Positions 1 to 27,570 of a stretch of 64,000 nt of DNA are shown here, piece by piece. The notes beneath the pieces were generated by a model, which worked only from the letters and a program-made list of their open reading frames with translations, was not told the DNA's origin and ran no database searches. Source of the stretch: Flavobacteriaceae bacterium EG-1 (GTDB lineage Bacteria; Bacteroidota; Bacteroidia; Flavobacteriales; Flavobacteriaceae); assembly GCF_009649685.1 (NCBI RefSeq), contig NZ_WJPK01000006.1, positions 1 to 64,000 on the forward strand, in the 5' to 3' direction. Each line of letters starts with the position of its first letter. Position 1 is the first letter of the stretch. Position numbers and translations under genes: made by a program.

Positions 1-3000
1 AGCAAAATGAAGTATAATTCTATACTCACCATCTGCCAATGGAATATCATATCCAAAGGTTGGTGGAGAAGCACTACGCTCTGTTTGATACAAAGTAGCT
101 ACAGTTGCACTGGTATTTTCATATACCTTACCGCCAACAAAATTCTGATCCGCAGCAAAAACATCACCGTTATACGTTAACTCGGGTCCACCTGCATTAA
201 TACGTAACGCAAAGTCGTTCACAACTTCGTCCTTAGCTTCTACGTCTATCGTAAAAGAATCCATAAGGTTACCAGCATCTGTTACTTTCAAAGTAACTGA
301 ATAAATACCGGCAAACTCATAAGTGTGTTGGGTTATTTGATTCGTTGAAACTGGAGAACCATCTCCAAAATTCCATTCATATATCAATCCACTTTCTGCA
401 TCATTTGAGGCACTACCATCAAAATTAAATTGAAGTGAATTCACCCCTCCTATTGGTGTAATAGATGCAACAGCATTCGGAGTTGTATTTCCAACACCTG
501 TAACCGTAATAGTTATATAATCAGTATGCGACAAACTTAGATTATCAGTAACAGTTAAACCAGCTTGATAAACACCCACTGTATTGTAGGTATAATTTGT
601 AACAGCATCTGTTGATGTTCCACTTCCATCACCAAAATCCCATAGATATGACACGATATTGTTGTTGTCGTCGAATGACCCACTTCCATCAAAATCAACG
701 TAAAGTGCAGCAGGGCCTTCAATGGTATTTGTTGTAATTACGGCCACAGGTGCTTGATTCGCTTCATTAATGCTAATTGAAACGTTTGCAATTGCCTGTA
801 GTCCTGTTTCATCTTCAACAGTATAACTAAAAGAATCGGAACCTACATAATCTAAAGCCGGTGTATATAACACTTCTGTACCCGCTTCATTTAACTCTGC
901 TAATCCATTTAAAGGACTTTCAACTGACACAATTGTAATTAGATGATCATTTGGATCAGAATCATTATCCAACAATGCCAAGTTCATAGCAACATTTTGC
1001 TCTGTTACATAACTATCATCATTTGCAACTGGTGGTTCACTTATGCTAATTTCAAAACTAGTTGAAGCAGTAAGTCCGTTAGCATCTTCTGCAGTTAAAA
1101 CTATAGAATAACTTCCCGTTGTTCCTACTGGTGGTGTTCCTTCGAAAAGACCTGTAGTAGAATCAAAATTTATCCAAGATGGTAGTACTTCACCATTTGC
1201 AGTAGCAGTTATTTCCAAAGTATTTCCAGGATACCCTTTATCAAAATACTCATTAGTATCTAATGAAAACAATTCATTAATTGCAACTAATAAATCATCA
1301 ATAGGTTGTGCTGTTGGCACCGCTTCAGGTCTAATATTAATAAAATAGAATGTATTATCATTCCAATCACAGTTAGCAGAACCTGCTCCACATCCGCCTT
1401 GTACAAAATCTTGTAAAACTATATATTCATTAGGAATCACATCGCCATTATGGTCTATAACTTTGTACACTCTTGCTCCTAATAAGTCTGGTCTATTGCC
1501 ATTAATATTATTGCCTCCACTTGTTAAATAATTGGAAATTGCAATTCTAAATGGTTCGCTAATAGTAGTAGCGGTATCAAAATTAATTCCATCGCCCTTT
1601 CTAGGTAGCAATGTTTGATAATAAGTACCATCATGACTAAAGTTAATTCCTCCAACAGTACCTGTTCCATCAACCTCTACAAACTTTGCTCCATTTGAAC
1701 TTGGACCACCATGTAATGCAGAAATCTGTATTCCAACAACTGGTTTACTTGGATCTGCCTGAACAAATGTTGAAGACAAAATTAAATCTCCCTCATAACC
1801 TGCATCAATGTTTTCAGCTATAGGATAATTTGAACTAGGTCTGTATGGTAATGCATTTGGAGGTGTTATAGTTCCTTCATCATTTACTACACTTAACATA
1901 CTGGATTCAAATCCGAAGGCATCAAAAACCTCTTGTGCATTAATTTCATCACCACCTTCAGGTTGAGGTGAATATGCACCGTGTAAAGTTGCTTTATTTT
2001 CTAAGGCATTATCTGCATTAGAAATGATCTCAATTGATTGTACAAAAATGCCATTACTAACAGTACTGGTTCCTCCAATAAAAGTTACATCTACATCGGC
2101 AAAACTTCCAGTCTCAATAGTTAAGGGTAAAGTAGCTATTCCACCAGTACTATCTAATAATTCATAAGAATAATCATTCGCGTCAGAAATGTTTATTGCA
2201 GTCACTACTAATGGACCAGTACCTGAATTATTCAATCGCATTATATTTGAATCATGGACTTCGGCCTGTCCTGGATTGCCTAATCTATGAAAAGTATAAT
2301 AATCATCTGCTGGAAAACCTCTATCCGTACCAGGAATTTTAGTCATATTTTCTAAGGCTAACAAAGCACCAGATGGAGTTTCAATGGTAAACTCAAATGT
2401 TTCTTCAGCGATGTTTCCATTTGCATCTTCTGCAGTAACTACTAAAACGTGATTACCGACGTCTACTACATTAATTGGTACGCTATATGCTTCTAAGGCA
2501 TTGTCATCTAACATATATTCTAATCGAACAATACTACCACTTTCACTTTCATCAATAGCACTTAATTCTATAGATACTGCTCCCCTATAAGTATTTTCAT
2601 CACTACTATTGCCATCGAAATCAGCTACAATTGTTGGCAATAATAAAGAAGTATCTATAGGTGCTAAACGAATATAATTAGGTTTAGCATTGGCACCACC
2701 CGCACCTAATGACAATCGGAGCAGGCCATCAGTAACCTCGACCATGTTTGTTTGTTCAAAATTGCCATAATCATCAGGTGCCGTACTTTCTTGATTATAA
2801 TTTATAATTGTAACACCGTTAACATCTAAAACATGATTACTATCTGAAAAATCTGGATCTCCAACACTAATATTTACGGAATAAGACCCATTAGGCACAT
2901 TTACAACCCAGTCCCTTTGTGGGTAGTTGGTTGCATTGTTATGACCAATAATTGTGAACGTACTCAACAGTGCATCACCCTCTCTATTTCTACCATTAAC

Positions 3001-6000
3001 TGCTGCATTTGCAGGGGTTAATGTACCAGGTTCTACCCAACCAAAAGTTAAATCTCCTAAAGAAGTATCCTGAACACCATAAGGCACCCCTAAATCATCA
3101 ATATATCCTTGTGGAGAAACCGCAATATCATCAGCATCTTGAAAATTAAATTGATATACATACACCAATTCATTTGTAACGGATAAATTAACATCTATAG
3201 TAGCATCTTGATAATTAGATGCAGTAGCCGTAATTGTTGCTTGATAAGATCCTATTGACAGCCCTGTTATGTCAACACCAATTTCGAACGAAGAATTGAT
3301 TTCAAAACTTGTTGGCAACACAACCCAATCTTCAGACGAAGTCAAATTAATTTCACTAGAAGTTACGCCTCCATTACCTGAAAGCATCAATTCTTGTGTT
3401 GGAATTTCTTCTTGATTTATAGAAGCTACATAACTTAGTTCACTCTTATTAAAATCTAAAACTAAAGTTCCATCTTCATAAGGAATTACATTATCAATAA
3501 TAAACATGTAATCTTGATAATCACCATTTGATGCATCTTCAAATGCTATTAAATAGCTATTTTCAATTGGATTTCCATCCCGATCTGCCATGGGGTAGAT
3601 TCTAGTTCTATGTACAACACCTGTAGGTTGTATTGCATTTAACCCATCTTCAGAATAATTTATTCTACCAAAAGAATTGGAATCAACATAGAATCCGAAT
3701 ACTGCACCCAATGGATCAAACACATTATTCCCAGATACTATAGGGGGAAATAAGGTCTGCGCGTTTTCAATTTCACCTTCTAACACACCAACTTCATTAA
3801 GTGCAACTACGCCTTCTGTATTAGTATACCAACCGAATGGAAGTTCTTCTGCTGGCGAATAGCGACCAACCGGAGTAACATTTACAGGTGCGTCTGAGGC
3901 TTTTACCCATAATTCCACTTCTGATTCATCTCCACTTGGAGCCGGATTAGTCCCATTGGCTAATGAGGTCCATCCAACATTTACTCCAATTCCTAAAGCA
4001 TCCACAACATCCTGTAAAGCTGGTTCTTCACCACCTTCAAATCCTGCCTTTTTCAAAGCGTGCAAACCAACTTCGAAACTTGGATTAACTTCATCATCAC
4101 TAGTTAACACTAAACTTGCTTCTTGATATCCAAGATTAGAACCGTTTAAGTCAGGTGCATATGTAATAGAATAAACCTGAGATTCACTAGGTGCAATAGA
4201 AATTGCTCCTGATGGAGTAACTGATTCGAACTGATTGGCATATTCTCCAGTAATAGTTGCACCAGAAATATTTAAAGCAGCAGTACCTTCATTAGTTACG
4301 GAAACAGTTTTTGTATCAGAATTTTCACCTTCATTATTAACCGTAATTTCAAAAATCAATTCATCTGGTGTAGCCGCAATTTCAGGACCTACTGTTGCAG
4401 GTACCGTTGCTCGTAACAGTGTTAATTTAGGTGTACCATTATTATCTCTGTCGTATTCAGATATATAGATATTACCAGTTTTTGGGTCTTCAATCACATC
4501 TAATGGATCATCAAATCCACCCAATCCAGGCACATCTCCATTAACGTTTCCAATATCACCATTAGACTTTGGCTGCATTACTAAAATATCATCTTGACCG
4601 CTAAAACGCACTACCATTAATAGTCCTTGAAGTTTGCCTCCAAAGGCATTACTTTGATATTCTATCGCTCCATTTGGAGATTTATTTTTACCAAAATCAA
4701 ATGCCGGCTCCCTATAATTTGGATCTGGACCTAAATCATTAGGGTACTTTGCAACATCTGTATAAGATGCTTCTTCTTGACCTGGTAATCCGCTATATGG
4801 AGCTCCACCATGATTTAATACAAATTCACCTCTATATGGATTTGGATGACCATGATATGACCCCCCTTGAGTTTTAAACAACCAATCTTTTTGAGTTTCA
4901 CCACCCGTTAATAAAGGCACATCAGGAATTGTAGTTAATCCATCTATTCTTCTTGCTAATGGATAGTCATCCGTTGAAGGAGAATTCGGAGAATTGTTAT
5001 TGTTCCCAGCTGTACCATTTGTAGGAATGTACAACCAACCATTTGAGTGCCAGACCAAATCATAAGCATTTCGCACTCCAGTTGCAAATATTGATAAAGG
5101 CGCATTTGTTGCAAATGGATTATAAGAACCATCACTCATGGTTAAACTACCTGAAGTAGCACTATTTATAACACTAATATCATCAGTAGTATAGGCGCTT
5201 AATGGTAAAGCAGATGGTAATTTATCCAATTCTACCTTTAATATTGCTCCGGCCAATAATCTTTCTGGTCTATTTACCCAATTTGGATCAGGATCACCAC
5301 CAGCTGTATTACTTCCTTGACTAATAAACATATCACCTTGCAAGTCAAATTCTATACTATTGGTTAAATGATCTTTACCAGAACGTGGTAAATGAATGAT
5401 TAAATCTTCAACCGTTGAAAGTGTTGGACCAGAAAGCTTACTTAAAATACCATCCCATTCTGGACCATTAGTAACCGAGGCAGTACTATGTGTTACATAG
5501 GCAATTAGATTTTCTGCAGTTGAAACAGGATCAAATGCCAGTCCAATAATTAATCTGTCGTTATTAGCTCTAGCCCCATCCTCCGGATGCACTGCTCCTT
5601 GCAATTCTGGACTAAGTATTTCTAGATTTTCCAAAGTACCATCAATTGCCATATCCCAACGATAAATTTTACCATCAGAATTAAAGTTGCCAATAGTACT
5701 CGCGTAAAGTTTGCCATCTGGCCCGATTACCAAACTTGAAAAACGTTGATTTGATGTACCATCTCCTAATGCTATACCACCAGGTACTTTTGTAAATTCA
5801 ACTCCTGTCAAATCTAATTCAGCAACCGTATCTTCATCACCGGTCGTGAATTGAGATTCAAACTCAGCAAATGCCAAACGATCCGAAGTATCACCTACTA
5901 AATTAGCTTCTATATCACTAGTAAGTCTAAAAACGTAATTGGTAAACGGTTTCAATGGGCTTAATGGAGTTAATGTAATTGCATCTCCTCCACCTGTGTC

Positions 6001-9000
6001 ATTTGAATTTGAAGGCACAAGCACTTCACCACCTGTGGTAACTTCGTAAAGGTTTACATTTCCTGCGTAGGTAGTTTTATCAAGTTCATAGCCTACTGGA
6101 GTAACAACTTCTACATTTATTTGAAAGTCCGTTATTGCAACATTTACGGCATTATGACTAGGCGTTACATTTGTGAAAAACGGCTCCGTAATTTCACCAC
6201 CTTCTGATATTGTTAAAGAGTTAATTTTTGTATTAAAACCTCCTGAGGCATCTATTGTTAATCTACCATCAGAAACTGTTATACTTGTAGTACCGGAAGT
6301 AAACCTAGTGGCAGAATCTGCAGTTCCTGTTGGGGTATATCCATCTATAATATTTATACCTTCTACATTAATTGTATGATTTGGAATGTTATTAGAATTT
6401 GAATCCACACTTGGATCTCCTACCCCTACCGAAACAGTATAATTACCATTTGGAACAGCAATTTCCCAAATACCTTCCGTAAGTACACCATTTGTTCCTG
6501 CTCCATTATTTACATCGCCATATTGCATATGTATTAATGTATTTTTAAGAACATCAACACTTCCAACTTCTCTATTTCTAGCATTTTCAGATAAATCTAA
6601 AGCAGTTTGTCCATTTGTTGTTAACCATCCATACGAATAAGAATTACCTCTATCTGCAAAACCTAATCCTGAATCAACTAAATAACCTGTAGGAGGAACA
6701 TCCTCTGGTAATGAAAAATTAATACTTACAGGTTGAAATGTTACTTGGTTTTCTGGGGTAATTGCAAAATCTTCAAAGACATATACAACATCCGCAACTA
6801 GCTCCCTTCGTTTGGTAGCATATACACCGGCAAAACTCTGATTGCTATAAGCTGCATTACCGCTTAAATAAACAGAAGGTAGAGGCAATGAACCAACTAC
6901 TATTTCTGTTCCATTGTTTAAGGTATAATAAGCCGTTAGCAAATTATTTTCGACATCTACAAATAGTCGTAAGTTAACATTACTTGAATGTAAACCTGTT
7001 ACATTTGTAGCTCCAATTTTTGATGCATCCCCTGAAACTCCAGCGACTTCAGATCTTAATTCTACCTGTCCGCCGTTAGAAACATTTAATTTAACAAAGT
7101 TGTCTTCATCCAAACCAAACCATAAACCGCCTTGTTCAGAATCGTTACTTCCATCTGAATACGGATTTATTAATGTGGTCTGAATACTAAAACTACCAAT
7201 AGTGTTAGCGTTAAATGCTACGCCTAAAGTATTTATTTGAGAGTTAACATCTGTACTTGTTCCTGAACCAGTACCATTAATTATATATGCTATACCATTG
7301 CTTGCATTAATATTTAAGTTTCCACTTGTTACACTAATTTTTGATGGTTCATAACCGGGAACATTTGGATTAGAAACGATTCCATCTGCTGCTATTCTTG
7401 CAGATGGATTATCTACCATTGTAAATCCAGTATTGCTCAGACCACCTTCTGTACCATCAAAATCTAATGCAAATGGCAGAGATACTGCCAATTCACTACA
7501 TTCCAACGTACTTATTGGAGCGCATGCCTCAACTGGCGTATCATCAAAAGGCTGGATATTTCTAGCAATTACCACAATATCTTGGTAATCATACCCAGAA
7601 ACATGTTCTTCTGTAGCAATTATATAGGCATTTTCTTCACCTGGAAGCTCATAAATTCTAACATGGTGAGGAATTGCATCACTAAAAGTATTTAGGACAT
7701 CTTCACTAAACAATTGTCTATCACTAAAGTATGGCCATCTACTAACAAATCCGAAACTTTCAATTCCTGGATCAAAACTTAATGAGCCATTTACAATAGG
7801 GTTCAAGGTTTGACCATTATTCGTAGTCGTATTTTCTATATTAAATACTTCAGTAACACTATTTACATCTCCAGATTCATACCATCCAAATGCTACAATT
7901 GGATTATTCGCTTCCGGACCATATACACTTAATACCTCTAAGGTTACCGGTGCATCTGATGCTCTTTCAAATTTTTGAATAGCAACTTCATCTCCTAAAA
8001 TGTCATTATAAGATGCCCCACTTTCTAAATCAATTAAATTAGTAGAAGTATTAGTATCACCAACGTTAACTACACCATCACCTAATTGTGTATTTAATAT
8101 CCATTGCAATGATGGTTCATTAGCTCCACCTGTTCCTACTTTGCCCAGACCACTTAATGAAATAATTACAGGCTCAGCATCGGTACCGGAAATTGTTAAC
8201 TCAGCAAACTTAGGACCATTTGATGTAGGATCAAATATGATATCAAATGAACCTGAATTTTGAGCAGCCATACTTGAAGGCAACCCGGAAAAACTAAACT
8301 GATTTGCATCATCTCCAGTAATTTGAGCAGTTATATTGTTTAATGTTGCATTTCCTAAATTAGACAATGTTATCTCTTCGGAATAAGTATTGGTTCCACT
8401 GCTAACAGCGTCACCAGAAAAATCATCATTACTAACAACTATTACCGCTTTTGGTGTAGATTGATTACTAGGTTTAAGTAAAATTATATTACTACTTCCA
8501 TAATCAGAAACATAAATATTTCCTGTGTTAACATCTTCAATAAGATCTAAAGGATCGTTAAAGCCAGTAAAGCCAGGAATTCCGACTTTAAATGTAGAAA
8601 TATCGCCATTCGGTCCGTCGGGAACTAAAGCTATAATATCATTGCCTCCACTATATCTAACCACTAAAATAGCTCCTTGTAGGTTTCCATTTTCTGCATT
8701 ACTACGATACTCTATAACTCCATTTGGAGATTTATTTAATTCGAAATCAAAAGCGTCACCTCTATAATTAACATCAGCTGAAACTCCATTATATACAGCA
8801 TTATTTACATCTGCATCACCTCTATTCAATACAAATTCTCCACGCAACGGATTCGGATGTCCATAAAAGCCAATAGTACTATTTGGATCTATTCTAAAAA
8901 GCCAGTCACGCTGAACATTATTTCCATTTGAAGCTGGAATAATTGGGTAAAGAGGATTTGAATGGTCGTAAAAAGAACCATCCGGTCTTCTGGTTCCATC

Positions 9001-12000
9001 AATTGATGCTGGAGCATTACTTCCTCCAGCTGTACCATTAGTAGGCACATATAATTGACCATTTGAATGCCAAACTAAATCATATGCATTTCGTATACCA
9101 GTTGCAAAAAGCGTTAAAGGAGCATTTATATAATATGGATTATAAGTACCGTCATCTGCGTATGTTTGTCCGTCCTCAGTATATGTTGAAACTGTAGAAA
9201 CTAAAGTTGGCGAACCTGTATTTACACTATTAATAGCCACAGGATCCATAGTGGTTTTAGCATTTAAAGGCCATTGACTTTCAGGTAGCTTATCTAAATC
9301 TAGTCTTAAAGCAGAAGCAGATAATAACCTTTCTTTACGATTTCCCCATGCATTATCTGGAGCCCCAGCAGCACTATTACTACCCTGGTTGAAATAAAGA
9401 ACATTTGGTTCATCTGATTTAAAGGCAATACTATTTGTTAAATGATCCTTTTTAGATCTTGGTAAATTTGTAACTATTAAATCTTCATTCTCTAAATTAA
9501 CACCTGTAAGTCGTGAAATCTTACCATCCCAAGATGGAGCATTATTTAACGCACCGGATTGATGCGTGATATAAACGATAAGATTTGTGGCTGTTGCATC
9601 GGGGTCAAAAGCAAAACCGATTGCTGCTCTAGACCCATAGCTTGACTTCCAAGCATTTAAAACTTGTTCATTAGCTAGTGTACCGTCAGCATTTAAGTCC
9701 CAACGATGAATATCGCCATCTATTTCAAGACCATATAATTTACCATCAGGACCAATAGTTAATGTTGCGTATTTTGCTCCAGAAGCAACTACACCTACAT
9801 TTTCAAAAGATACATTGTCCAAATCGGTTGTTGGACCACCTCCACCACCTCCGGTTGTAAAACTAGAAGTGAAAAATGCAAAAGGCTCGCCAGTAACATC
9901 AAGCACTCCATCTATTTCTACAACATAAGTTGTATTCGATTCTAATGGCTGTGATGGAACAATACTAATAGCATCACCTCCTCCAGTGCCATTCGCCGTA
10001 GAGGCAATTGGTGTTGCATTACCTTCCTTATAAATTTTAACTGTTGAACTATTGATCGAATTATTATCTACACCTGTATTTCCAATTTCATCAAAATTTG
10101 GCAAAAACAGATTATTTGCAGAAACACTTGCATTTACGGAAACTCCTGTAGCCCCATCTGATGGCGTAATACCTAAAACTAATGGTGTTTGTTTTTCACG
10201 AACTTCTAAATTTATAGTAATTTCCGCATTTTCGTATCCTAATTCAGGGTCATCAATTGCAAAAACTCTAGTACTATATGTGCCCGCAGGAACATTTTCT
10301 TTTATACTAAAAGTAGCCTCACCAACAGTAGTCTCAGAGGGTAACACTAACCATTCAAATGCATCTGGATCATCTGAAAATATTACTGTTGGATTTCCAG
10401 AGGTAGAAGACAGTAGTGTTGATTGAGAAGGTATTGTTGTACCTACATTACCAATAAAGTTAAGTTCAGAATCATCAAAAGCTAATTCTAAAGCAACTTC
10501 CTCTACTGCTATTTCAAAATCTTTAAATATCGCAGTTATTGATTGGTCTTCAGCAGCATTTCGGTGCGTAGTAAAAACACCTGCAAAATTTAATTCCTTT
10601 GCTGGGTTAGCAGAATCGAAAGTTGTTCCTTCAAAATAATTGGAAGGCACACTTAAAACATCACCTCCTGAATCTGAAACTAAAATTTCAGCGCCTCCAT
10701 TAAAAGAATAGTAACCTTTAACTGTATTATTAATTGGATCTAACTCCATTCTAAGTGTAATTTCACCAGTATTGGATGCTATATTACCCGTATTAATTTC
10801 TAAAAATGCAGTTTCGGAAGTTGTTTCATCCATATTTTCAACCTGCAATTGTACTTTTCTTGACGTATTACCAGTTTTAAGAATAGCCAATTTTAAATAG
10901 TGATCCTCATCTAAACCAAACCAAATACCTGCTTGTTGTGAGTTATTGGTAGCACTAACCGAAAAATCGGGATTTTCTAAAGTTGAGCTAACACTAAAAA
11001 CACCAGAAGGAACAACTAATCCTGCACCAAGTGCATTCATTTGAGAATTTGTATTATTACTTCTTGGCGCACCAACTGGTTGGTTATAAAAGATACCTTT
11101 AGTACTTGTTATAGATAGACCGTTCGCATTTTGTGTAATTAAACTTGGAGCATAGCCAGGCACATCTGAATGAGCTATAGCATCATCAGCAACTAAACGA
11201 GCACTTGGCTCTAAAACCATTGTTAAGCCTGTATCTGACATATTTCCATTAGCAACGGTAAAATGAAGTGCTAATGGTAATCCTACTTCAATTTCATCAC
11301 AATCCAATGTACTTATTGGTGTACAGGGTATTGACTCTTCAGTTACTGTCACAGCCCATGCTTCACTTGTAATTCCATCTTCAGCCGTTACTGTATATAT
11401 AAATGGTGTACTAAAATCTTGTGAAGTATTAGACAGTGGACTAATTGTTGCACCAGATGACAACTCAATTGTAGGTGTTAATGCTGTTAATGTAGTTCCA
11501 CTTACTACTTGAATTGCAATTGTATTGTTTAAATCATCAATCGTTGCTAAACCGGTTTCTTCAGTAAAACTAAATGCTGTTATTTCAGTTGCCGTACTAA
11601 CATTTGCAGAATGAACACTAAAATCATCAAAACTTGCAGTAAATTGAGCACCGGCTCTATGGGTCGCATAAATACCTGCGAAACTCATGTTGTCTTGTAA
11701 CCCTGTTTCATTAATGTCTCTACCAGTAAAATAATCAGCTGGAATTTGAATAGACCCAAGAGAAACACTACTACCAGAACCTATAGTATAAATTGCTTCA
11801 GCTGTTAAAGCAACAGGATTTACAATTAATTCTAAGGTTACGTCATTTCCGGAAACACCGACGTTATTATCTTGTACTTGTTGTGATGCATTCGAAAGCC
11901 CTGCCGATTCAACTCGAATTTCTACGTTATCGTTATTTACATTTAACTTAACAAAGTTATCTTCATCATACCCAAACCATATTCCCGCTTGAGCTGAACT

Positions 12001-15000
12001 TCCACCTGTTACTATATTTAGAATTGTAGCTTTAATAGAAATCGATTCATTTAAACCATCAAATCCAACTCCTAAAGTATTTATTTGATTATTGTTGTTA
12101 TTGCTAGCAGGTGGATTTAAATAAGCGATTCCTCCTTGTGATTGAATTTCCAACACTCCTGAATTCAATGATAAAAGTGATGCCTCATACCCATTTATAT
12201 TCGGATTGGTTACCGAAATATCTCCATCTCTTCGCGGTTCTGAATTTTCTAGCACCATTGTAAAACCAGTACCCTGATTAGAATTTTCAAGTATTGAATT
12301 TTCTACGGATGAAGAAAAATCTAAATTAAGCGGCAACGAAACTTCAATTTCTTCACAATCTAATGTACTAATTGGAGAACAATATTCTATTTCTATTACT
12401 TCAGTAATATTTATAGTAATATCTGCAGAAACAGTATTTTCTCCGTCGCTAACCTCAACGGCTAAAACATATTGAGGGGTACTATCAAAATCTAATTCAA
12501 CTAGCGAAGTTATTTCGCCAGTAGAATTATTTATATCGAAGGCATTACCAATATTTCCAGCAGTAATTGTATAATTAAGATTTGCCGAATCAGAGTCTGT
12601 GGCTACTACTGTACCAATAATACTGTTTATTGCGAGATCTTCAGCCGCAGTAAATGTTTGCTCATTTATAACGGGAGCATTGTTTATTTCTTCAGTTACA
12701 ACCGCAGTATAATCTGTTGCAATACGAACTGGACCTAATTTCGCATTATTGGTATTTGAAGAACTAATAAACAATCGTCCTATTTCAGGTGTACCCTGCA
12801 CTGTATGTGTACCCGCTGCTGTCCAAACTGTTTCATTAATATTTAATTTTGGTTGGGTTGTCCACGAATATGTAATCGTATCAACACCATCCCATTCACC
12901 TTGAATAACAAATTGGAATACCTCGTCAGAATCAACTACCAAGTTACCGTTATCTGAACCAGCACCGGCCAATCCAATTCTAGCAATTAATCCTCCAGAA
13001 CCATCGTTAGCAACTTGTTCTCGAATCCATTGGTCACCTCCAATTTCATCATCAATTCGCAGTGCAGTTCGAACTCTTGCATTCGCACTTGTCACCTTAA
13101 AATAAGTACCAAAGTAAAAAGGCTCATTGGCAACTAAAGTTACCGATGAATTATCTAAAGGAATATAATCGTGTGTTTGTCCACCTAAAGAAAAATCAAG
13201 TGAATTCGTTGTATTTGGTGTTAAACCCTCAGCGATTACTGGAATTACGGCCCCTGTTCCATTTTCTCTTAACCAATCGGAAGGCGCCACTACATGTAGA
13301 TTACCTACTCCGTATGAATCAAAATCTTCAATTAAAGCAAAACCAGTTGTTTCATTAACATCCGTTACAGTTATAGCGATATCTTGTACAGCAGTCAGTA
13401 ATCCTGAATCTGTAAGAGTTACTTGAATATTATAGACATTATCCGCTCCAGCATCTAGTGGAGTCTCGAAATCCGGCGCAGCTATAAAAGATACAACACC
13501 TGTTACGAGGTCAATATCAAAAAGTGAATCATCAACTAAACCGCTAAGTGAATAAATTAGTCCCGGTCCTTCGACATCAGTATCATCAGTAGCTTCAACG
13601 TCTATTGCTGCAGTTTGATTTTCCTCAACATTTACGGTGGCAGCACTTGTAATTGAAGGCGCAGTATTTGTTGATGCAGCTTCTGTAACTGTTACCTGCC
13701 AAACTTGTGTAGTAGTACCATCTTCAGCCGTAACGGTGTAATCTACAGCATTGGTAAAATCTTGTGCAACTCCACTTTCAGGACTTATTGCCGCATCATC
13801 AGAAATGGTAATCGTCGGTTCTAATCCAGTTACTAAGGTGCCATTAGAAACTTCAATTACAATTGTATGTGCAATTTCATCAATTGTAGCCTCAGCAGTT
13901 TGTTCGGCGAATGTAAAAGTAATAATATCGGTTTCCGTACTCGGTGCTTCTGTTACTGTTACGGTCCAAACTTGCTCCGATGCATCTTCGGCCGTCACAG
14001 TATAATTTATAGGGTTAGTGAAATCTTGTTCCACTCCACTTGCAGGGCTAATGGTAGCATCATCTGAAACCGCAATAGTCGGTACTAAATTGGTAAGCAA
14101 AGTACCATTACTTACTTCAATAGAAACTGTTTTTGCTGTGTCATCAATCGTTGCAGCACCTGTTTCATTCGCTAAGGCAAATGAGAGAATTTCATTTTCA
14201 TCATTTAAAGCGACAGGTAAGATTTCTATTGCTTGTACAATTGCATTATTCGCTGAAGCCGTGAAATCTATATTAAGTTCGCCATCACTAACTAATACAT
14301 CATAACTTTGTATGGCTAAAACTCCTTTTCCATAGGATGCAACAAGATCTAAATCACTTATTAGCGTATTACCTTCAATTTCGACATCAAATACTCGATT
14401 CCCCGCAGCATCATGAAAATTCTCTATCATATGAAGAGCCACGGTGTATTCACCATTAGCAATAGGAAAATTATAACTAAAATCTGCTCCATACCTTCTC
14501 GGATGATATAAATCTGTATCGGAACTACCTATAATATCATAAGAAGAACTAGAAGTTGTTGTTGATGCCGTTTCTTCTAAATATGCTGTATTTTCAGTAA
14601 CAAACAAATCCCCATCTTTGGTATAATCTTGCCCTGCAACATTCATTCGATATGGAACTGAAACAGTTGGAACAACAATTGCTTCCACTATAATATCTGC
14701 ATCTAATTCAGCAGGTTTAAAACCTTTTGCAGTTGCTATAATTTTATCATTTCTAGTATCGTTCTCCGCCAATGCAGAAGCATCAACAGTAAAATCAAAT
14801 TGACCTAAAGTATTGGTTGTAGGTATTGTTAACCAATCATTTTCACCAGTAAGTGTTTTATCTACAACATTAATATTATCATTAATTACCAATCCGATAT
14901 TTGTAGCTCCCGAACCGGAAAGTGTACTTGAAAAAGCTCCTGTTGCTCCAACTGTTATAGTCTCACTTATTGTGTTTGGTGAGAAAGAAAGTACGCCATT

Positions 15001-16533
15001 AACTGGAGTTCCGGTACTTTCTACTATATCAATATGTGTGATTTTAGAATTAAAACCACCCAAACCATTCATTGTAAGTAATCCATCATTTACTGCAACA
15101 ATCATTGTCTCTATAACGGTTTGACCTGGTGTTGGAACAAAAGCAGGAATTATCGTGTACCCTTCTAATGTAGCACTGTGACGACTATCAAGATTATTAG
15201 CATCTTTATCACCAAGACCTACCGTTACTTCATAAGTTCCATTTGGTACTTCGATTTCCCAAATTACTTCATTCCCTCTAGGTTGATTCAACCAAGATTG
15301 ATTTCCTCCGCTATTAGAAAAAATATTATCACCCTGAAAATGTACTAATGTTCCTTGCAATTTTTCTTGGTCCGAAACACTACTGTAAGTACCAGTTATT
15401 CTATTTCTACCTGCTCCACCTGTAGCTCCAGAACCCCCATTATTTGACACTTCATTTGAAATATCAATCGGTGTTATACCGTCTGAAGCTAATTTCCATC
15501 CATATTGATAATTATTAGACCCAACTGATATGCTTGCGTTTCCAAAATTTTTACCATAATCGGCTATGTAACCTGTTGGAGGCGTGGTGAATGAAGGGTT
15601 ATTTTGAAAATTAATGTGAGCCTCAAAAGGTGTAACTTCTTCTGTAACAGTAAAATTATCATAAGAAACCACTAATGAGCCTCCTGTTGAACTTCTTGTG
15701 CTTGTCATTATTCCTGCAAAAGATATTGCATTCGTGGCTACATTATTATCGTGATCTACTCCAACAAAGAAAGACTCTGGCACATTTAATGAATTACCAG
15801 GACCGACAACTTGAACTTCAGAAGCACCGTCTAAAGTATAAAAACCAGTTACGGTATTTGTACTCGGATTAATTGATATTCTTAAAGTTATATTTGTAAC
15901 ACCATTAGTAGAAACATTACCAGTATTCAGTTCATCTATGGTCATTGAAGTACCAGAACCAGTTTCTCCCCCAACGTTTTGTTCTAATGCCAATTGAAAT
16001 TTTTGCACACTTGTACCAGGCCTATCAACAGCAACTAATTTTATAAAATTATTTTCATTTAATCCAAACCATAAACCTGCTTGTTGTGATCTGTTATCTG
16101 GAGTTGACGAATTAAAGTCTGGCTGCGCAAACGTTGCTTCAATATTTATGACATTGGACCCAACAGCTAAACCAACACCTAAAGCATTCATTTGAGAATT
16201 CGTATTCGCACTACTAGAAGGTTGATTGTAATTTATTCCATTGGTTGCCATTATATTTAACTGACCCGACGACAAGGTTAAATTACCACTTTTTAGCCCA
16301 GGCACATTTGGGTCTGCACCTAAATCATCAGAAGTTAATCTTGAAGAAGGAGCATCTACCATTGTAAAACCAGTAGCTAAAATACCTCCTTGACTCCCAT
16401 TAAAATCTAAATTTAATGGCAATCCAACTTCTACTTGACTACAGTCTAGTGTACTTATATTGGAACAAGGTGTTTGGCCAAAAGAAATAGCCGTATAAAA
16501 TAATAGAAATGAGAGTAGCGTAATTTTTTTCAT
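1..16533 (-). CDS. Giant secreted multidomain lectin/malectin/sugar-dehydrogenase-like protein (N-terminal 5511 codons, partial)
   Basis: The frame opens at the ATG at 16533 and runs without a stop to base 1; I checked that landmarks near residues 1384, 1744, 2362, 3003, 3720 and the last codon share one frame. Residues 1-20 are a signal peptide ending SFGQ. Approximate order: LamG-like module A (22-292), malectin-like (298-502), BACON-like, malectin (618-770), two DUF5018-like repeats (777-951), cadherin, a ConA-like domain (1062-1273), cadherin, LamG B (1383-1641), DUF5018-like, LamG C (1734-2011), BACON-like, Big_5, GSDH-type propeller 1 (2226-2691), ASH-like, unknown module X1, LamG D (3000-3262), malectin-like, Big_5, propeller 2 (3569-4038), ASH-like, X2, BACON-like, malectin-like, Ig/ASH-like, X3, two cadherin-like repeats, two PKD domains (GDG-type motifs WDFGDGS and WNFGDGS) and a malectin start (RINAGGPE). 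The likely role is extracellular glycan binding and perhaps PQQ-type sugar oxidation. Export by T9SS is inferred; the C-terminus is missing. Confidence 0.9.
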   Translation of the reverse strand, partial: MKKITLLSFLLFYTAISFGQTPCSNISTLDCSQVEVGLPLNLDFNGSQGGILATGFTMVDAPSSRLTSDDLGADPNVPGLKSGNLTLSSGQLNIMATNGINYNQPSSSANTNSQMNALGVGLAVGSNVINIEATFAQPDFNSSTPDNRSQQAGLWFGLNENNFIKLVAVDRPGTSVQKFQLALEQNVGGETGSGTSMTIDELNTGNVSTNGVTNITLRISINPSTNTVTGFYTLDGASEVQVVGPGNSLNVPESFFVGVDHDNNVATNAISFAGIMTSTRSSTGGSLVVSYDNFTVTEEVTPFEAHINFQNNPSFTTPPTGYIADYGKNFGNASISVGSNNYQYGWKLASDGITPIDISNEVSNNGGSGATGGAGRNRITGTYSSVSDQEKLQGTLVHFQGDNIFSNSGGNQSWLNQPRGNEVIWEIEVPNGTYEVTVGLGDKDANNLDSRHSATLEGYTIIPAFVPTPGQTVIETMIVAVNDGLLTMNGLGGFNSKITHIDIVESTGTPVNGVLSFSPNTISETITVGATGAFSSTLSGSGATNIGLVINDNINVVDKTLTGENDWLTIPTTNTLGQFDFTVDASALAENDTRNDKIIATAKGFKPAELDADIIVEAIVVPTVSVPYRMNVAGQDYTKDGDLFVTENTAYLEETASTTTSSSSYDIIGSSDTDLYHPRRYGADFSYNFPIANGEYTVALHMIENFHDAAGNRVFDVEIEGNTLISDLDLVASYGKGVLAIQSYDVLVSDGELNIDFTASANNAIVQAIEILPVALNDENEILSFALANETGAATIDDTAKTVSIEVSNGTLLTNLVPTIAVSDDATISPASGVEQDFTNPINYTVTAEDASEQVWTVTVTEAPSTETDIITFTFAEQTAEATIDEIAHTIVIEVSNGTLVTGLEPTITISDDAAISPESGVAQDFTNAVDYTVTAEDGTTTQVWQVTVTEAASTNTAPSITSAATVNVEENQTAAIDVEATDDTDVEGPGLIYSLSGLVDDSLFDIDLVTGVVSFIAAPDFETPLDAGADNVYNIQVTLTDSGLLTAVQDIAITVTDVNETTGFALIEDFDSYGVGNLHVVAPSDWLRENGTGAVIPVIAEGLTPNTTNSLDFSLGGQTHDYIPLDNSSVTLVANEPFYFGTYFKVTSANARVRTALRIDDEIGGDQWIREQVANDGSGGLIARIGLAGAGSDNGNLVVDSDEVFQFVIQGEWDGVDTITYSWTTQPKLNINETVWTAAGTHTVQGTPEIGRLFISSSNTNNAKLGPVRIATDYTAVVTEEINNAPVINEQTFTAAEDLAINSIIGTVVATDSDSANLNYTITAGNIGNAFDINNSTGEITSLVELDFDSTPQYVLAVEVSDGENTVSADITINITEVIEIEYCSPISTLDCEEIEVSLPLNLDFSSSVENSILENSNQGTGFTMVLENSEPRRDGDISVTNPNINGYEASLLSLNSGVLEIQSQGGIAYLNPPASNNNNNQINTLGVGFDGLNESISIKATILNIVTGGSSAQAGIWFGYDEDNFVKLNVNNDNVEIRVESAGLSNASQQVQDNNVGVSGNDVTLELIVNPVALTAEAIYTIGSGSSVSLGSIQIPADYFTGRDINETGLQDNMSFAGIYATHRAGAQFTASFDDFSVHSANVSTATEITAFSFTEETGLATIDDLNNTIAIQVVSGTTLTALTPTIELSSGATISPLSNTSQDFSTPFIYTVTAEDGITSEAWAVTVTEESIPCTPISTLDCDEIEVGLPLALHFTVANGNMSDTGLTMVLEPSARLVADDAIAHSDVPGYAPSLITQNANGLSITSTKGIFYNQPVGAPRSNNTNSQMNALGAGLVVPSGVFSVSSTLENPDFSVSATNNSQQAGIWFGLDEDHYLKLAILKTGNTSRKVQLQVENMDETTSETAFLEINTGNIASNTGEITLRMELDPINNTVKGYYSFNGGAEILVSDSGGDVLSVPSNYFEGTTFDSANPAKELNFAGVFTTHRNAAEDQSITAIFKDFEIAVEEVALELAFDDSELNFIGNVGTTIPSQSTLLSSTSGNPTVIFSDDPDAFEWLVLPSETTVGEATFSIKENVPAGTYSTRVFAIDDPELGYENAEITINLEVREKQTPLVLGITPSDGATGVSVNASVSANNLFLPNFDEIGNTGVDNNSINSSTVKIYKEGNATPIASTANGTGGGDAISIVPSQPLESNTTYVVEIDGVLDVTGEPFAFFTSSFTTGGGGGGPTTDLDNVSFENVGVVASGAKYATLTIGPDGKLYGLEIDGDIHRWDLNADGTLANEQVLNAWKSSYGSRAAIGFAFDPDATATNLIVYITHQSGALNNAPSWDGKISRLTGVNLENEDLIVTNLPRSKKDHLTNSIAFKSDEPNVLYFNQGSNSAAGAPDNAWGNRKERLLSASALRLDLDKLPESQWPLNAKTTMDPVAINSVNTGSPTLVSTVSTYTEDGQTYADDGTYNPYYINAPLTLFATGIRNAYDLVWHSNGQLYVPTNGTAGGSNAPASIDGTRRPDGSFYDHSNPLYPIIPASNGNNVQRDWLFRIDPNSTIGFYGHPNPLRGEFVLNRGDADVNNAVYNGVSADVNYRGDAFDFELNKSPNGVIEYRSNAENGNLQGAILVVRYSGGNDIIALVPDGPNGDISTFKVGIPGFTGFNDPLDLIEDVNTGNIYVSDYGSSNIILLKPSNQSTPKAVIVVSNDDFSGDAVSSGTNTYSEEITLSNLGNATLNNITAQITGDDANQFSFSGLPSSMAAQNSGSFDIIFDPTSNGPKFAELTISGTDAEPVIISLSGLGKVGTGGANEPSLQWILNTQLGDGVVNVGDTNTSTNLIDLESGASYNDILGDEVAIQKFERASDAPVTLEVLSVYGPEANNPIVAFGWYESGDVNSVTEVFNIENTTTNNGQTLNPIVNGSLSFDPGIESFGFVSRWPYFSDRQLFSEDVLNTFSDAIPHHVRIYELPGEENAYIIATEEHVSGYDYQDIVVIARNIQPFDDTPVEACAPISTLECSELAVSLPFALDFDGTEGGLSNTGFTMVDNPSARIAADGIVSNPNVPGYEPSKISVTSGNLNINASNGIAYIINGTGSGTSTDVNSQINTLGVAFNANTIGSFSIQTTLINPYSDGSNDSEQGGLWFGLDEDNFVKLNVSNGGQVELRSEVAGVSGDASKIGATNVTGLHSSNVNLRLFVDVENNLLTAYYTLNNGTEIVVGSLPLPSVYLSGNAAYSNQSFAGVYATKRRELVADVVYVFEDFAITPENQVTFQPVSINFSLPEDVPPTGYLVDSGLGFADRGNSYSYGWLTTNGQTALDLSENARNREVGSVDVLKNTLIHMQYGDVNNGAGTNGVLTEGIWEIAVPNGNYTVSVGVGDPSVDSNSNNIPNHTINVEGINIIDGYTPTGTADSATRFTSGTTSITVSDGRLTIDASGGFNTKINSLTISEGGEITEPFFTNVTPSHNAVNVAITDFQINVEVVTPVGYELDKTTYAGNVNLYEVTTGGEVLVPSNSNDTGGGDAITLTPLSPLKPFTNYVFRLTSDIEANLVGDTSDRLAFAEFESQFTTGDEDTVAELDLTGVEFTKVPGGIALGDGTSNQRFSSLVIGPDGKLYASTIGNFNSDGKIYRWDMAIDGTLENLEILSPELQGAVHPEDGARANNDRLIIGLAFDPVSTAENLIAYVTHSTASVTNGPEWDGILSKLSGPTLSTVEDLIIHLPRSGKDHLTNSIEFDLQGDMFISQGSNTAGGDPDPNWVNRPERLLAGAILKVELDKLPSALPLSAYTTDDISVINSATSGSLTMSDGSYNPFATNAPLSIFATGVRNAYDLVWHSNGWLYIPTNGTAGNNNNSPNSPSTDDYPLARRIDGLTTIPDVPLLTGGETQKDWLFKTQGGSYHGHPNPYRGEFVLNHGGAPYSGLPGQEEASYTDVAKYPNDLGPDPNYREPAFDFGKNKSPNGAIEYQSNAFGGKLQGLLMVVRFSGQDDILVMQPKSNGDIGNVNGDVPGLGGFDDPLDVIEDPKTGNIYISEYDRDNNGTPKLTLLRATVPATVGPEIAATPDELIFEITVNNEGENSDTKTVSVTNEGTAALNISGATITGEYANQFESVTPSGAISIAPSESQVYSITYAPDLNGSNLGYQEASLVLTSDDEVNPSFEVGLHALKKAGFEGGEEPALQDVVDALGIGVNVGWTSLANGTNPAPSGDESEVELWVKASDAPVNVTPVGRYSPAEELPFGWYTNTEGVVALNEVGVLEGEIENAQTLFPPIVSGNNVFDPLGAVFGFYVDSNSFGRINYSEDGLNAIQPTGVVHRTRIYPMADRDGNPIENSYLIAFEDASNGDYQDYMFIIDNVIPYEDGTLVLDFNKSELSYVASINQEEIPTQELMLSGNGGVTSSEINLTSSEDWVVLPTSFEINSSFEIGVDITGLSIGSYQATITATASNYQDATIDVNLSVTNELVYVYQFNFQDADDIAVSPQGYIDDLGVPYGVQDTSLGDLTFGWVEPGTLTPANAAVNGRNREGDALLSTFTIIGHNNATNYPQRDWVVNVPNGSYSVNISVGDPDFSDSNHVLDVNGVTIINYNQESTAPDDYGNFEQTNMVEVTDGLLRLSLGAGGANAKPNYIRLAPIDTSLLLPTIVADFDGNSSDENTYRGAVSIELSAIDESESGSIVRLEYMLDDNALEAYSVPINVVDVGNHVLVVTAEDANGNIAEETFEFTIETPSGALLALENMTKIPGTDRGFPADDYYTFHRLGNPGQAEVHDSNIMRLNNSGTGPLVVTAINISDANDYSYELLDSTGGIATLPLTIETGSFADVDVTFIGGTSTVSNGIFVQSIEIISNADNALENKATLHGAYSPQPEGGDEINAQEVFDAFGFESSMLSVVNDEGTITPPNALPYRPSSNYPIAENIDAGYEGDLILSSTFVQADPSKPVVGIQISALHGGPSSNGAKFVEVDGTGTVGGINFSHDGTYYQTLLPRKGDGINFDTATTISEPFRIAISNYLTSGGNNINGNRPDLLGARVYKVIDHNGDVIPNEYIVLQDFVQGGCGAGSANCDWNDNTFYFINIRPEAVPTAQPIDDLLVAINELFSLDTNEYFDKGYPGNTLEITATANGEVLPSWINFDSTTGLFEGTPPVGTTGSYSIVLTAEDANGLTASTSFEISISEPPVANDDSYVTEQNVAMNLALLDNDSDPNDHLITIVSVESPLNGLAELNEAGTEVLYTPALDYVGSDSFSYTVEDETGLQAIANVSISINEANQAPVAVITTNTIEGPAALYVDFDGSGSFDDNNNIVSYLWDFGDGSGTSTDAVTNYTYNTVGVYQAGLTVTDNLSLSHTDYITITVTGVGNTTPNAVASITPIGGVNSLQFNFDGSASNDAESGLIYEWNFGDGSPVSTNQITQHTYEFAGIYSVTLKVTDAGNLMDSFTIDVEAKDEVVNDFALRINAGGPELTYNGDVFAADQNFVGGKVYENTSATVATLYQTERSASPPTFGYDIPLADGEYRIILHFA
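1315..1970 (-). repeat. Third copy of unrecognised module X in giant gene
   Basis: A segment of about 200 residues starts EINAQEVFDAFGF and ends with an acidic CDWNDNTFYFINIRPE motif. Related segments lie at about 8150-7545 (EPSLQWILN to QDIVVIARNIQPF) and 4035-3455 (EPALQDVVDALG to QDYMFIIDNVIPY). The ending resembles the calcium-binding-looking tail of DUF4114-type domains, but I do not recognise the family with certainty. Confidence 0.6.
3455..7535 (-). repeat. Super-repeat unit 2 in giant gene: LamG D, malectin-like, Big_5, sugar-dehydrogenase propeller 2, ASH-like, module X2
   Basis: This is the second copy of the block, again starting with a C-x-P-I-S-T-L-x-C motif and ending with module X (GDYQDYMFIIDN). 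The propeller repeats DHLTNSIEF, NAYDLVWHSNG and YIPTNGTAGN. It differs from unit 1 mainly by a malectin-like domain in place of the BACON-like segment. The copies are clearly diverged at DNA level, so the duplication is not recent. Confidence 0.7.
7545..11328 (-). repeat. Super-repeat unit 1 in giant gene: LamG C, BACON-like, Big_5, sugar-dehydrogenase propeller 1, ASH-like, module X1
   Basis: This block begins at the ISTLDC motif of LamG module C and ends with module X1 (SGYDYQDIV motif). Its propeller carries DHLTNSIAF, NAYDLVWHSNG and YVPTNGTAGG, which recall the PF07995 glucose/sorbosone dehydrogenase fold. The same order of domains recurs immediately downstream, so the two blocks look like a tandem duplication at domain level. 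Boundaries are approximate and read by eye. Confidence 0.7.
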
Positions 16534-19289: not shown

Positions 19290-20657
19290 TTGAAACTATC
19301 CCAAATGTTTGCTCTAGCATTACTATTTTTCTTTTTAAACAATTGTACTTCAGACGAGGTAATTACGACACCTACTAAAGAACAAGAACAACAAGAAGTG
19401 GATGCTGAAAATGAAGGAACTGACGACGACGAAACTAAAACCGAAGAAGAAGAAGAAGAAGAAGAAGAAGAATTTGTTAGTGAATCCACTGACCCTATAG
19501 ATATCAGCCAAGGACTACCTGTAAATGATCTTGAAAATCACCCGATGCAAGATGTAGCTAAACCTGGATATTTAAAAACAATTATTGACCCCTCTTTTGG
19601 CACAACAATACGTCGCATATCTAATGCATCAGATGGCCAAGTTATAAAACCGATGTATAGCACAATACAGGCTTGGAACGCTGACGAAAGTTATATGATA
19701 TTATATGACCAAAGCAATGGAGTCCATCAATTACTGGATGGAATGAACTATTCATTTATTCGTAATTTAAATGATATTTCTCCTGATGATTTGGAGCAGA
19801 TATATTGGGATTTTAATGACCCAGATATCTTTTTTTACGTTGACAGACAAACTAGTGATTTAGTAAAATATAGCGTTAGTAATAAGTCCAAAGAAGTACT
19901 TATAAACTTAGGCGAACTCTCGGGTTGTTCTGGAAATATTGGCTCTGGAAATGATGTACAAATGATGTCATGGAATTCCGATGTTATTGGCTTTAGATGT
20001 GACAACACGAAGGCTCATGCCTATCGCATTTCTACGAATGAGTTCATTTCTTTCAACTTAAATTATGTCGAATATACTGCTCCTATGCCACTACCAAGTG
20101 GAAATGGATATTATCATAGCACTAAAATTTATAATACAAAAGGTAACCTAGACAAATCACTTAATGAATCTGGCACAGAACATTCCTGTCTTGGCAAATT
20201 AGTTGGCGGCGCAGATGCGCATTATGCTATTGCATTTTCGGAAGGTCCACAAGGCGGTTGCATTGGTAATATTATTGCGCATGATATAGCAACAGGAGAA
20301 TGTTTTCCGGTAATTAGCGAAAGTCTAGGATATCCCTATCCATTAAGTGGTACTCACATCTCTGCAGTATCGCATAAAAACCCGGGGTGGATAGCTGCCT
20401 CAATGATGGGTTATAATCAAGATGGACAATCTCTTTTAGATCAAGAAATAATTCTAGCGAGAGTTGAAAAAGGGAATGTAAGAGTATATAGAATAGCTCA
20501 TCATCGTGCCGACGAAGATGAATTTGATTATTGGGGAGAACCACATGCTGTGATTAGCCCTACTGGCACACGTGTAATTTTTGGTTCTGATTGGAGTGGT
20601 TCAGAGGATGGAAAATCAGTAGACACCTATGTTGTTGAATTACCTTTTTTCCAATAA
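19290..20657 (+). CDS. Lipoprotein with poly-Glu linker and predicted beta-propeller
   Basis: The product has a lipoprotein signal (ALLFFFLNNC, lipidated Cys at residue 19), an acidic linker with ten consecutive Glu, and a C-terminal domain of about 380 residues. Recurrent WNADESYMILYD- and WDFNDPDIFFYVD-like strands suggest a WD40/PD40-type propeller. The start is TTG at 19290: an in-frame TAA lies at 19281 and the first ATG is at 19305. The TTG start supplies the usual Lys at position 2, but the ATG would still leave a hydrophobic signal. Surface exposure is plausible because the acidic linker follows the lipobox. I do not recognise a specific function. It ends 45 bp before the convergent OmpA-like gene. 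Confidence 0.75.
   Translation: MKLSQMFALALLFFFLNNCTSDEVITTPTKEQEQQEVDAENEGTDDDETKTEEEEEEEEEEFVSESTDPIDISQGLPVNDLENHPMQDVAKPGYLKTIIDPSFGTTIRRISNASDGQVIKPMYSTIQAWNADESYMILYDQSNGVHQLLDGMNYSFIRNLNDISPDDLEQIYWDFNDPDIFFYVDRQTSDLVKYSVSNKSKEVLINLGELSGCSGNIGSGNDVQMMSWNSDVIGFRCDNTKAHAYRISTNEFISFNLNYVEYTAPMPLPSGNGYYHSTKIYNTKGNLDKSLNESGTEHSCLGKLVGGADAHYAIAFSEGPQGGCIGNIIAHDIATGECFPVISESLGYPYPLSGTHISAVSHKNPGWIAASMMGYNQDGQSLLDQEIILARVEKGNVRVYRIAHHRADEDEFDYWGEPHAVISPTGTRVIFGSDWSGSEDGKSVDTYVVELPFFQ
19443..19472 (+). repeat. (GAA)10 in-frame trinucleotide tract
   Basis: Ten perfect GAA units encode the poly-Glu linker of the lipoprotein just after its N-terminal region. The repeat is in frame, so gain or loss of units would change linker length without a frameshift. 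Confidence 0.95.
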
Positions 20658-22643: not shown

Positions 22644-22656
22644 ATAATATTTCTAT

Positions 22657-23655: not shown

Positions 23656-23665
23656 TTGTATCGTA

Positions 23666-27328: not shown

Positions 27329-27358
27329 CTGTGCAATACTATTTTTTTTTAAATAGGT

Positions 27359-27388
27359 CAGATGTAATTCACTATAATCATATTTCAA
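27359..27388 (-). promoter_or_regulatory. Candidate Bacteroidota sigma-type promoter for the type B exoprotein operon
   Basis: On the minus strand TTG (27388-27386) is followed after 19 nt by TACATCTG (27366-27359), one mismatch from TAnnTTTG. Transcription would begin near 27352, which places the ATG at 27391 upstream of the transcript and supports a start at 27328. Confidence 0.5.
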
Positions 27389-27570
27389 CAATACAACTAT
27401 AGTTCATTTCATAGACTGTTCTTCGAATGTTCTCAATTCAATTCACAGCGAGTATGTCGGTTTTAGCAAAATTTGGGATCAATAATACTAAAAAAATCGC
27501 CCAACGCCTTATATAAAGGTTTAAATCAGGCTTTTATAGTTCAACTACATAATATACGGATAAAAGACCG

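Follow-up and report, generated by a model that had tools for sequence, protein, structure and literature searches.

The stretch of DNA analysed here (the window) covers 64 kb from the start of contig C7 in an assembly of 4.45 Mb and 10 contigs, and its positions 1-16533 are occupied on the minus strand by a single frame of 5511 codons that is open from its ATG onwards and contains no stop. In 50 mononucleotide shuffles of that region, read on one strand, the longest open frame was 148 codons, which bears out the claim of the initial annotation that one continuous frame of at least 5511 codons is present; the codon-position GC of 0.49/0.43/0.17 is coding-like. The following features were assigned:

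1..16533, minus strand: open frame of the giant, 5511 codons, truncated at its 3' end where C7 stops
16477..16533, minus strand: putative signal peptide, residues 1-19 (by eye; N-termini similar in relatives)
15643..16470, minus strand: concanavalin/LamG-like module 1 (own profile built on the four copies in the window)
15019..15633, minus strand: galactose-binding/malectin-like module 1 (own profile; AGA-YXIM_GBD weakly in relatives)
14218..14652, minus strand: malectin domain PF11721 (Pfam and own profile)
13957..14196, minus strand: DUF5018, best among three stretches (Pfam)
12406..12657, minus strand: cadherin domain PF00028, best stretch (Pfam)
11614..12387, minus strand: LamG-like module 2 (own profile)
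10510..11331, minus strand: LamG-like module 3 (own profile; best Pfam GH43_C2 stretch)
9844..10194, minus strand: Big_5 preceding propeller 1 (own profile; Pfam Big_5 in relatives)
8464..9825, minus strand: propeller 1, soluble glucose dehydrogenase fold (profiles, predicted structure)
8134..8442, minus strand: choice-of-anchor D after propeller 1 (NCBIfam and own profile)
7540..8145, minus strand: D domain 1, no Pfam family, weak likeness to DUF4114 (own profile)
6757..7530, minus strand: LamG-like module 4, between the two cassettes (own profile)
6202..6798, minus strand: galactose-binding-like module 2 (own profile)
5839..6189, minus strand: Big_5 preceding propeller 2 (Pfam just under cut-off; own profile)
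4399..5817, minus strand: propeller 2, 53% identical to propeller 1 (own profile)
4063..4386, minus strand: choice-of-anchor D after propeller 2 (own profile)
3472..4056, minus strand: D domain 2 (own profile)
2659..3177, minus strand: galactose-binding-like module 3 (own profile)
1042..1305, minus strand: He_PIG Ig-like domain (Pfam)
775..1038, minus strand: Big_9 Ig-like domain (Pfam)
502..759, minus strand: PKD domain 1 (Pfam)
265..432, minus strand: PKD domain 2 (Pfam)
1..219, minus strand: malectin domain, N-terminal half, truncated at the contig end, repeat also at the end of C6 (Pfam and own profile)

Malectin, cadherin, PKD, Big_9, He_PIG, DUF5018 and the concanavalin-like GH43_C2 exceed the Pfam cut-offs in the giant frame; Big_5 reaches 23.2 bits against a cut-off of 23.6, and choice-of-anchor D was added by an NCBIfam search. 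These matches recover the carbohydrate-binding-type modules and the cadherin, PKD and Ig-like spacers that the initial annotation had proposed, with its LamG-like modules appearing as the GH43_C2 match. Central to the architecture is a cassette of Big_5, propeller, choice-of-anchor D and D domain that occurs twice. It is preceded on the N-terminal side by LamG-like, galactose-binding-like, malectin, DUF5018, cadherin and two further LamG-like modules, a LamG-like and a galactose-binding-like module lie between the two copies, and the second copy is followed by galactose-binding-like, Ig-like, PKD and malectin modules.

The D domain comprises about 200 residues C-terminal of the choice-of-anchor domain of each propeller. 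Pfam yielded no weighty match for it, DUF4114 being found in 6 of 35 members with a best E of 0.026. In six genomes searched whole, all 13 matches to the D profile lie in frames that also hold this propeller. Some propellers go without it: several short relatives, L056 and L060 among them, gave no match. The module identity comparison had marked one further stretch as a third D-like domain, which the D profile did not recover.

Note that the giant frame runs off the end of C7, with its 3' end missing and the break located inside a malectin domain. Bases 1 to 228-231 of the window recur near the end of contig C6 in copies of about 99% (99.6%) and 88% identity, and once more at 65%. When the first 400 bases were searched against the whole genome, the only other hits were two weak short matches within C1. 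A contig-edge comparison, which covered 4000 of the 6680 bases of C9 and set aside C2 and C10 (N), agrees in that the terminal repeat is common to the ends of C7 and C6. At this end of C6 (L015:11699-16111) there is a minus-strand frame of 1470 codons, open at its 5' end, that contains near-identical malectin-PKD-PKD units of about 1050 bp, followed by a T9SS type A sorting domain. As the terminal repeat of C7 recurs there together with this frame, the two pieces are probably parts of a single gene with about 7,000 codons, a join that is inferred. In the stretch of relative G003 that was compared, nothing past the giant matched the genes lying beyond the C6 piece, and the join thus rests on the shared repeat. 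On the other side, ten window genes past the giant were tested, and five of them match genes located upstream of the giant in G003; the compared stretch ends there, so that most of the other five fall outside it.

The assembly breaks where the near-identical malectin-PKD-PKD units are found, and the giants of G129 and G270 as well as L026 and L031 also stop at contig edges. In the window's own genome (G000), long, open and repetitive-looking frames are further found at the starts of C1, C4 and C5 and at the end of C7, so that more giant genes may be broken in the assembly.

The architecture is not confined to this strain. Three relatives contain frames that are complete from stop to stop (6202, 6965 and 7106 codons) and share its core, and as evidenced by a scan with profiles built on seeds from window and C6 sequences, the order of this core is kept in all six giants scanned, namely that of the window and those of five relatives belonging to its own bacterial family. 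The number of N-terminal lectin modules varies among them, and in G129 a malectin match stands where one galactose-binding-like match was expected. In a module identity comparison in which some domain limits are estimates, the propellers are among the most conserved modules across four relatives (71-81% identity), exceeded in places in G105 by a choice-of-anchor D stretch (82%) and a D domain (80%). With about 6,000 to 7,400 codons, the architecture is a conserved one rather than the unusual single mosaic that had been supposed initially, and since related bacteria carry the same layout the protein is real.

We further followed the propellers beyond these giants. When genome contigs were scanned with the two propellers, at least 37 distinct loci matched, in Bacteroidota, Chloroflexota (Herpetosiphon), Actinomycetota, Planctomycetota and Cyanobacteriota. 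Of these 37, 13 hold two propellers in one frame; many frames are cut by the end of a locus or contig. Two propellers plus two D domains in one frame also occur in Cyclobacterium and Saprospiraceae. Within the window's own family, 48 of 397 genomes match at E<=1e-20; 16 of them fall below 1e-100, nine with two propellers in one frame, and the remaining 32 show weaker, partial matches. Two other genomes belong to the window's genus, and the propeller search matched neither. In a tree of 65 rows, drawn from the midpoint and with one row containing X left out, first and second propellers form separate groups, each at 100/100 and each with Flavobacteriaceae, Saprospiraceae and Cyclobacterium, and the duplication is therefore old or was passed on whole. 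Herpetosiphon (L048-L051) has two adjacent propeller proteins of about 1060 and 2720 codons, and the propeller of the shorter one is very divergent. For one cyanobacterial and one Chitinophagaceae relative the neighbouring genes were uninformative on function.

The downstream part that the initial annotation had wanted searched for a stop and a T9SS domain is cut at the end of C7, and the probable C-terminal piece on C6 carries the type A domain TIGR04183 with 42.9 bits against a cut-off of 23, tied to the window by the probable join. The same tail was confirmed in the complete giants of 6202 and 7106 codons (G003 and G105) and seen by eye in the one of 6965 codons. The window also encodes SprA, a T9SS translocon protein (54657-61820, minus strand), a PorP/SprF protein (22657-23655) and a CHU_C surface protein of the type B T9SS class (23666-27391). 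OmpA, PorP/SprF and the CHU_C protein stand in a row at 20703-27391 on the minus strand, and this row is matched upstream of the G003 giant as well. At 19290-20657 on the plus strand lies a gene for a protein of 455 residues that has an acidic stretch close to the N-terminus and matches no Pfam family at E<=0.001.

Flanking the G105 giant are an MFS transporter with a sugar-transporter match (L084:10737-11948, plus strand) and a member of the iron-type alcohol dehydrogenase family (L085:14352-15485, minus strand). Neighbours of this kind were found neither in the window nor among the scanned neighbours of the other two complete giants, and therefore no operon is claimed; none of the neighbour genes shared between giants points to sugar oxidation. 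The G403 giant is adjoined by a large frame with malectin and a kelch propeller (L087:3-5405, minus strand) that is cut by the end of the sequence analysed around that giant.

A whole-genome Pfam search at E<=0.001 matched GSDH to neither of the two propellers on C7, propeller 1 alone scored 18.2 bits against PF07995 with a gathering cut-off of 25, and phmmer with the stretch containing both propellers returned nothing from the PDB at E<=1. As Pfam GSDH thus gave no match above its cut-off to the window propellers, profile and fold comparisons were used. PF07995 does match 18 of 33 members of the propeller family at E<=0.01, with a best E of 1.5e-10, and the family profile retrieved soluble glucose dehydrogenase from the PDB with E 1.9e-7 to 3.3e-7, at a probability of 98.7% in profile-profile comparison. 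Elsewhere in the window's own genome, GSDH exceeds the Pfam cut-off 12 times, on C1 and C3, and six of these matches fall in frames longer than 1100 codons.

An AlphaFold model, calculated for propeller 1 only, reached a pLDDT of 92.1 and a pTM of 0.92, and propeller 1 is predicted to have a six-bladed fold of the soluble glucose dehydrogenase type. The top nine Foldseek matches to the model are PQQ sugar dehydrogenases and AA12 enzymes with E 1.8e-13 to 6.3e-10, at TM-scores, by query length, of only 0.50-0.56; the best is the AA12 structure 6jt5 (E 1.8e-13, TM 0.56/0.62, and Z 30.3 in VIA), and the tenth is the hedgehog-interacting protein HHIP, a non-enzyme. In VIA the 16 best-scoring rows all belong to PQQ-type sugar dehydrogenases or AA12, and ten of these have Z 28.8-30.6. 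The Acinetobacter enzyme appears at Z 25.8-27.2, its lowest row at 25.8 tying with Diels-Alderases at 25.2, and Diels-Alderases, lactonases and DFPase follow the dehydrogenases at Z 23-25. With kinship established by profile comparison and, for propeller 1, by the predicted structure, the two soluble glucose dehydrogenase-like propellers of the initial annotation stand, and they most likely represent a divergent branch of this superfamily.

The question for the functional determinants was addressed by an alignment of 58 propeller copies from several phyla, which includes both window propellers and is not a set of independent copies, as 8 rows come from two near-copy sets in four Herpetosiphon species and 2 are the window's own; the partial copy L059 was left out. 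His127, the counterpart of the catalytic His144 of the Acinetobacter enzyme, is kept in 58 of 58 copies, as are Asp306 (Asp252) and Arg122, the latter with no named counterpart in the Acinetobacter enzyme. Arg244-Asn245 (Arg228-Asn229) is kept in all 57 readable copies, one row having an X at this position. Besides Arg122, two further basic residues foreign to the known Acinetobacter site are conserved, Arg65 and His322, each in 57 of 58 copies. By sequence alignment, none of the 58 copies has Lys or Arg at the positions of the PQQ carboxylate anchors Lys377, Arg406 and Arg408, where Ser/Gly, Asp/Asn/Gln/Gly and Leu/Val, respectively, are found. The equivalent of Gln76 is Gln in 2 of 58 copies and that of Gln168 in none. 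The loop after Arg-Asn contains Gly; the calcium ligands Gly247 and Pro248 act through main-chain carbonyls and are not to be judged from sequence.

The initial annotation had tied its assignment to PQQ- and Ca-binding residues and to a structural match with GSDH folds. The structural match is strong, whereas the residues are mixed, with His and Arg-Asn kept and the equivalents of Lys377, Arg406 and Arg408 replaced. PQQ as the propeller cofactor is therefore uncertain and forms the least certain step of the explanation. The missing anchors weaken this assignment and do not refute it, since the fungal pyranose dehydrogenase CcPDH, which lacks Lys377, Gln76 and Gln168 and keeps Arg621, still binds PQQ (PMC6881789). 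A search for PqqC gave no match in the window's own genome, and among 296 genomes of the phylum none over the cut-off and 23 below it; for PqqE one match below the cut-off was found in the own genome. As the control genomes likewise yielded nothing over the cut-off for either protein, an absence of PQQ synthesis is not claimed.

The best evidence on the function of the clade comes from five standalone proteins, each 575-589 residues long and each from a different genome of the window's family, which represent all standalone matches under 1e-100. They are 39-43% identical to the window propellers and form their own group in the tree. All five flavobacterial proteins have a hydrophobic N-terminus, as judged by eye, and a CxxCH cytochrome c motif near the C-terminus; in the one that was scanned, PF13442 cytochrome c is present and PF07995 exceeds its cut-off. 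Its gene cluster contains, according to Pfam, GT4- and GT2-type glycosyltransferases and a hexapeptide-repeat protein, and homologues of the GT4 and hexapeptide genes lie near the standalone relatives at all five loci (L090-L094). Since they carry CxxCH beside glycosyltransferase genes, the standalone relatives support a redox role of the propeller clade that may be exerted near polysaccharide. Arg-Asn, Asp306 and His322 remain in these proteins. The aligned catalytic His is kept in none of the five, two of them having a His two residues earlier, and the conserved His and the cytochrome were thus not seen in one protein, which weakens a simple transfer of the redox inference to the giants.

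Taken together, we give a probability of roughly one half to the reading that the locus encodes a T9SS-displayed, glycan-binding giant of about 7,000 residues, whose two divergent dehydrogenase-type propellers most likely oxidise a sugar of the bound glycan. The protein would be exported by the T9SS and be held or released at the cell surface, where its LamG-like, malectin and galactose-binding-like modules on Ig, cadherin and PKD spacers would probably hold polysaccharide near the cell. The two cassettes in mid-protein would present the propellers to the bound chain, and a propeller would oxidise a glycan sugar by base-assisted hydride transfer to a quinone cofactor. The electrons would then pass to a separate acceptor, as CxxCH is absent from the window's 5511 codons and from the five relatives' giants that were checked. 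Sugar oxidation by the propellers is put forward as plausible.

A purely adhesive giant, in which the propellers are former dehydrogenases serving in binding or spacing as in the hedgehog-interacting protein, would be in line with several of these observations, namely the shared fold of the HHIP structures, the missing PQQ carboxylate anchors, the lack of a cytochrome motif in the giant and the predominance of binding and spacer modules over its length. Nevertheless, we judge it somewhat unlikely, because no readable row of the 58 copies, which span several phyla, departs from His127, Arg122, Arg244-Asn245 or Asp306 and because the standalone relatives carry a cytochrome c motif. We hold it to be rather unlikely that a different chemistry or cofactor has settled on the same fold, for instance that of a lactonase, a hydrolase or a non-PQQ dehydrogenase: Diels-Alderases, lactonases and DFPase are next in the fold list and Arg122, Arg65 and His322 are foreign to the known Acinetobacter site, but both fold lists are led by PQQ dehydrogenases and AA12, and the cytochrome fusion of the standalone relatives points to redox. 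An artefact of assembly or frame that joins unrelated genes is highly improbable, for although the frame stops at a contig edge inside a near-identical repeat, and the C6-C7 join is inferred, with what follows the C6 piece having no match past the giant of G003, such an artefact is contradicted for the 5511 codons by the three relatives whose complete frames (6202, 6965 and 7106 codons) keep the order of the core and of which two have a confirmed T9SS tail, and five upstream genes are common to the window and G003.

Returning to a surface giant with sugar-oxidising propellers, the scheme may be extended to a distinct dehydrogenase clade that binds a quinone or another cofactor through Arg65, Arg122, Arg389 or His322, with the giant capturing and oxidising surface polysaccharide and its cytochrome-fused cousins oxidising new exopolysaccharide at the envelope. 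We offer this extension as speculative and, taken as a whole, unlikely. If the propellers are active, Bacteroidota would put sugar oxidation onto glycan-binding fibres at their surface, outside the usual picture of hydrolases and uptake, and the clade would be one with changed contacts to its cofactor, whose cytochrome-fused relatives are encoded next to glycosyltransferase genes. Should they be inactive, there is still a conserved architecture spanning about 6,000 to 7,400 codons, one that is easily missed because the frames of the giants often stop at contig edges in draft assemblies.

With the soluble PQQ glucose dehydrogenase of Acinetobacter calcoaceticus and the aldose sugar dehydrogenases (PF07995), the propellers share the six-bladed fold (as predicted for propeller 1), the catalytic His, Arg-Asn and the equivalent of Asp252; they differ in that propeller 1 stays below the Pfam cut-off, that Lys377, Arg406, Arg408, Gln76 and Gln168 are not kept, and that they are embedded in a giant. 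The fungal AA12 pyranose dehydrogenases CcPDH and TrAA12 resemble them in the predicted fold and in the His and Arg-Asx residues. In CcPDH, PQQ is held by Arg273 and Arg621 (PMC6881789), for neither of which a counterpart is aligned in the propeller, and across AA12 the His is replaced in >25% of sequences while Arg/Asx is retained (PMC6881810). CcPDH is fused to a cytochrome domain (PMC6881789), and so are the standalone bacterial relatives, albeit to a b-type in the fungal enzyme versus a c-type (CxxCH) in the bacterial ones. Concanavalin-type (LamG) and SGL/lactonase propeller domains are reported for huge archaeal proteins (PMC11573180); these belong to another domain of life and to other propeller families, and the accessible portion of that work does not state that both domains occur in one protein. 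The available part of PMC11345257 contains nothing on the giant protein described here. Among the open-access papers listed, judged by titles and the beginnings of abstracts, we found none on a conserved giant with twin cassettes.

SprB-like giant T9SS surface proteins of Bacteroidota are repetitive, comprise several thousand residues and are exported by the T9SS, and the SprB-type gliding adhesin has a type B (CHU_C) sorting domain with an SprF partner. The window giant resembles SprB in its thousands of residues, its repetitive nature and its probable T9SS export. It differs in the type A sorting domain of the C6 piece, with CHU_C and PorP_SprF found in neighbouring genes instead, and in its propellers and lectin modules. 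Giant T9SS proteins and soluble glucose dehydrogenase-type propellers are each known.
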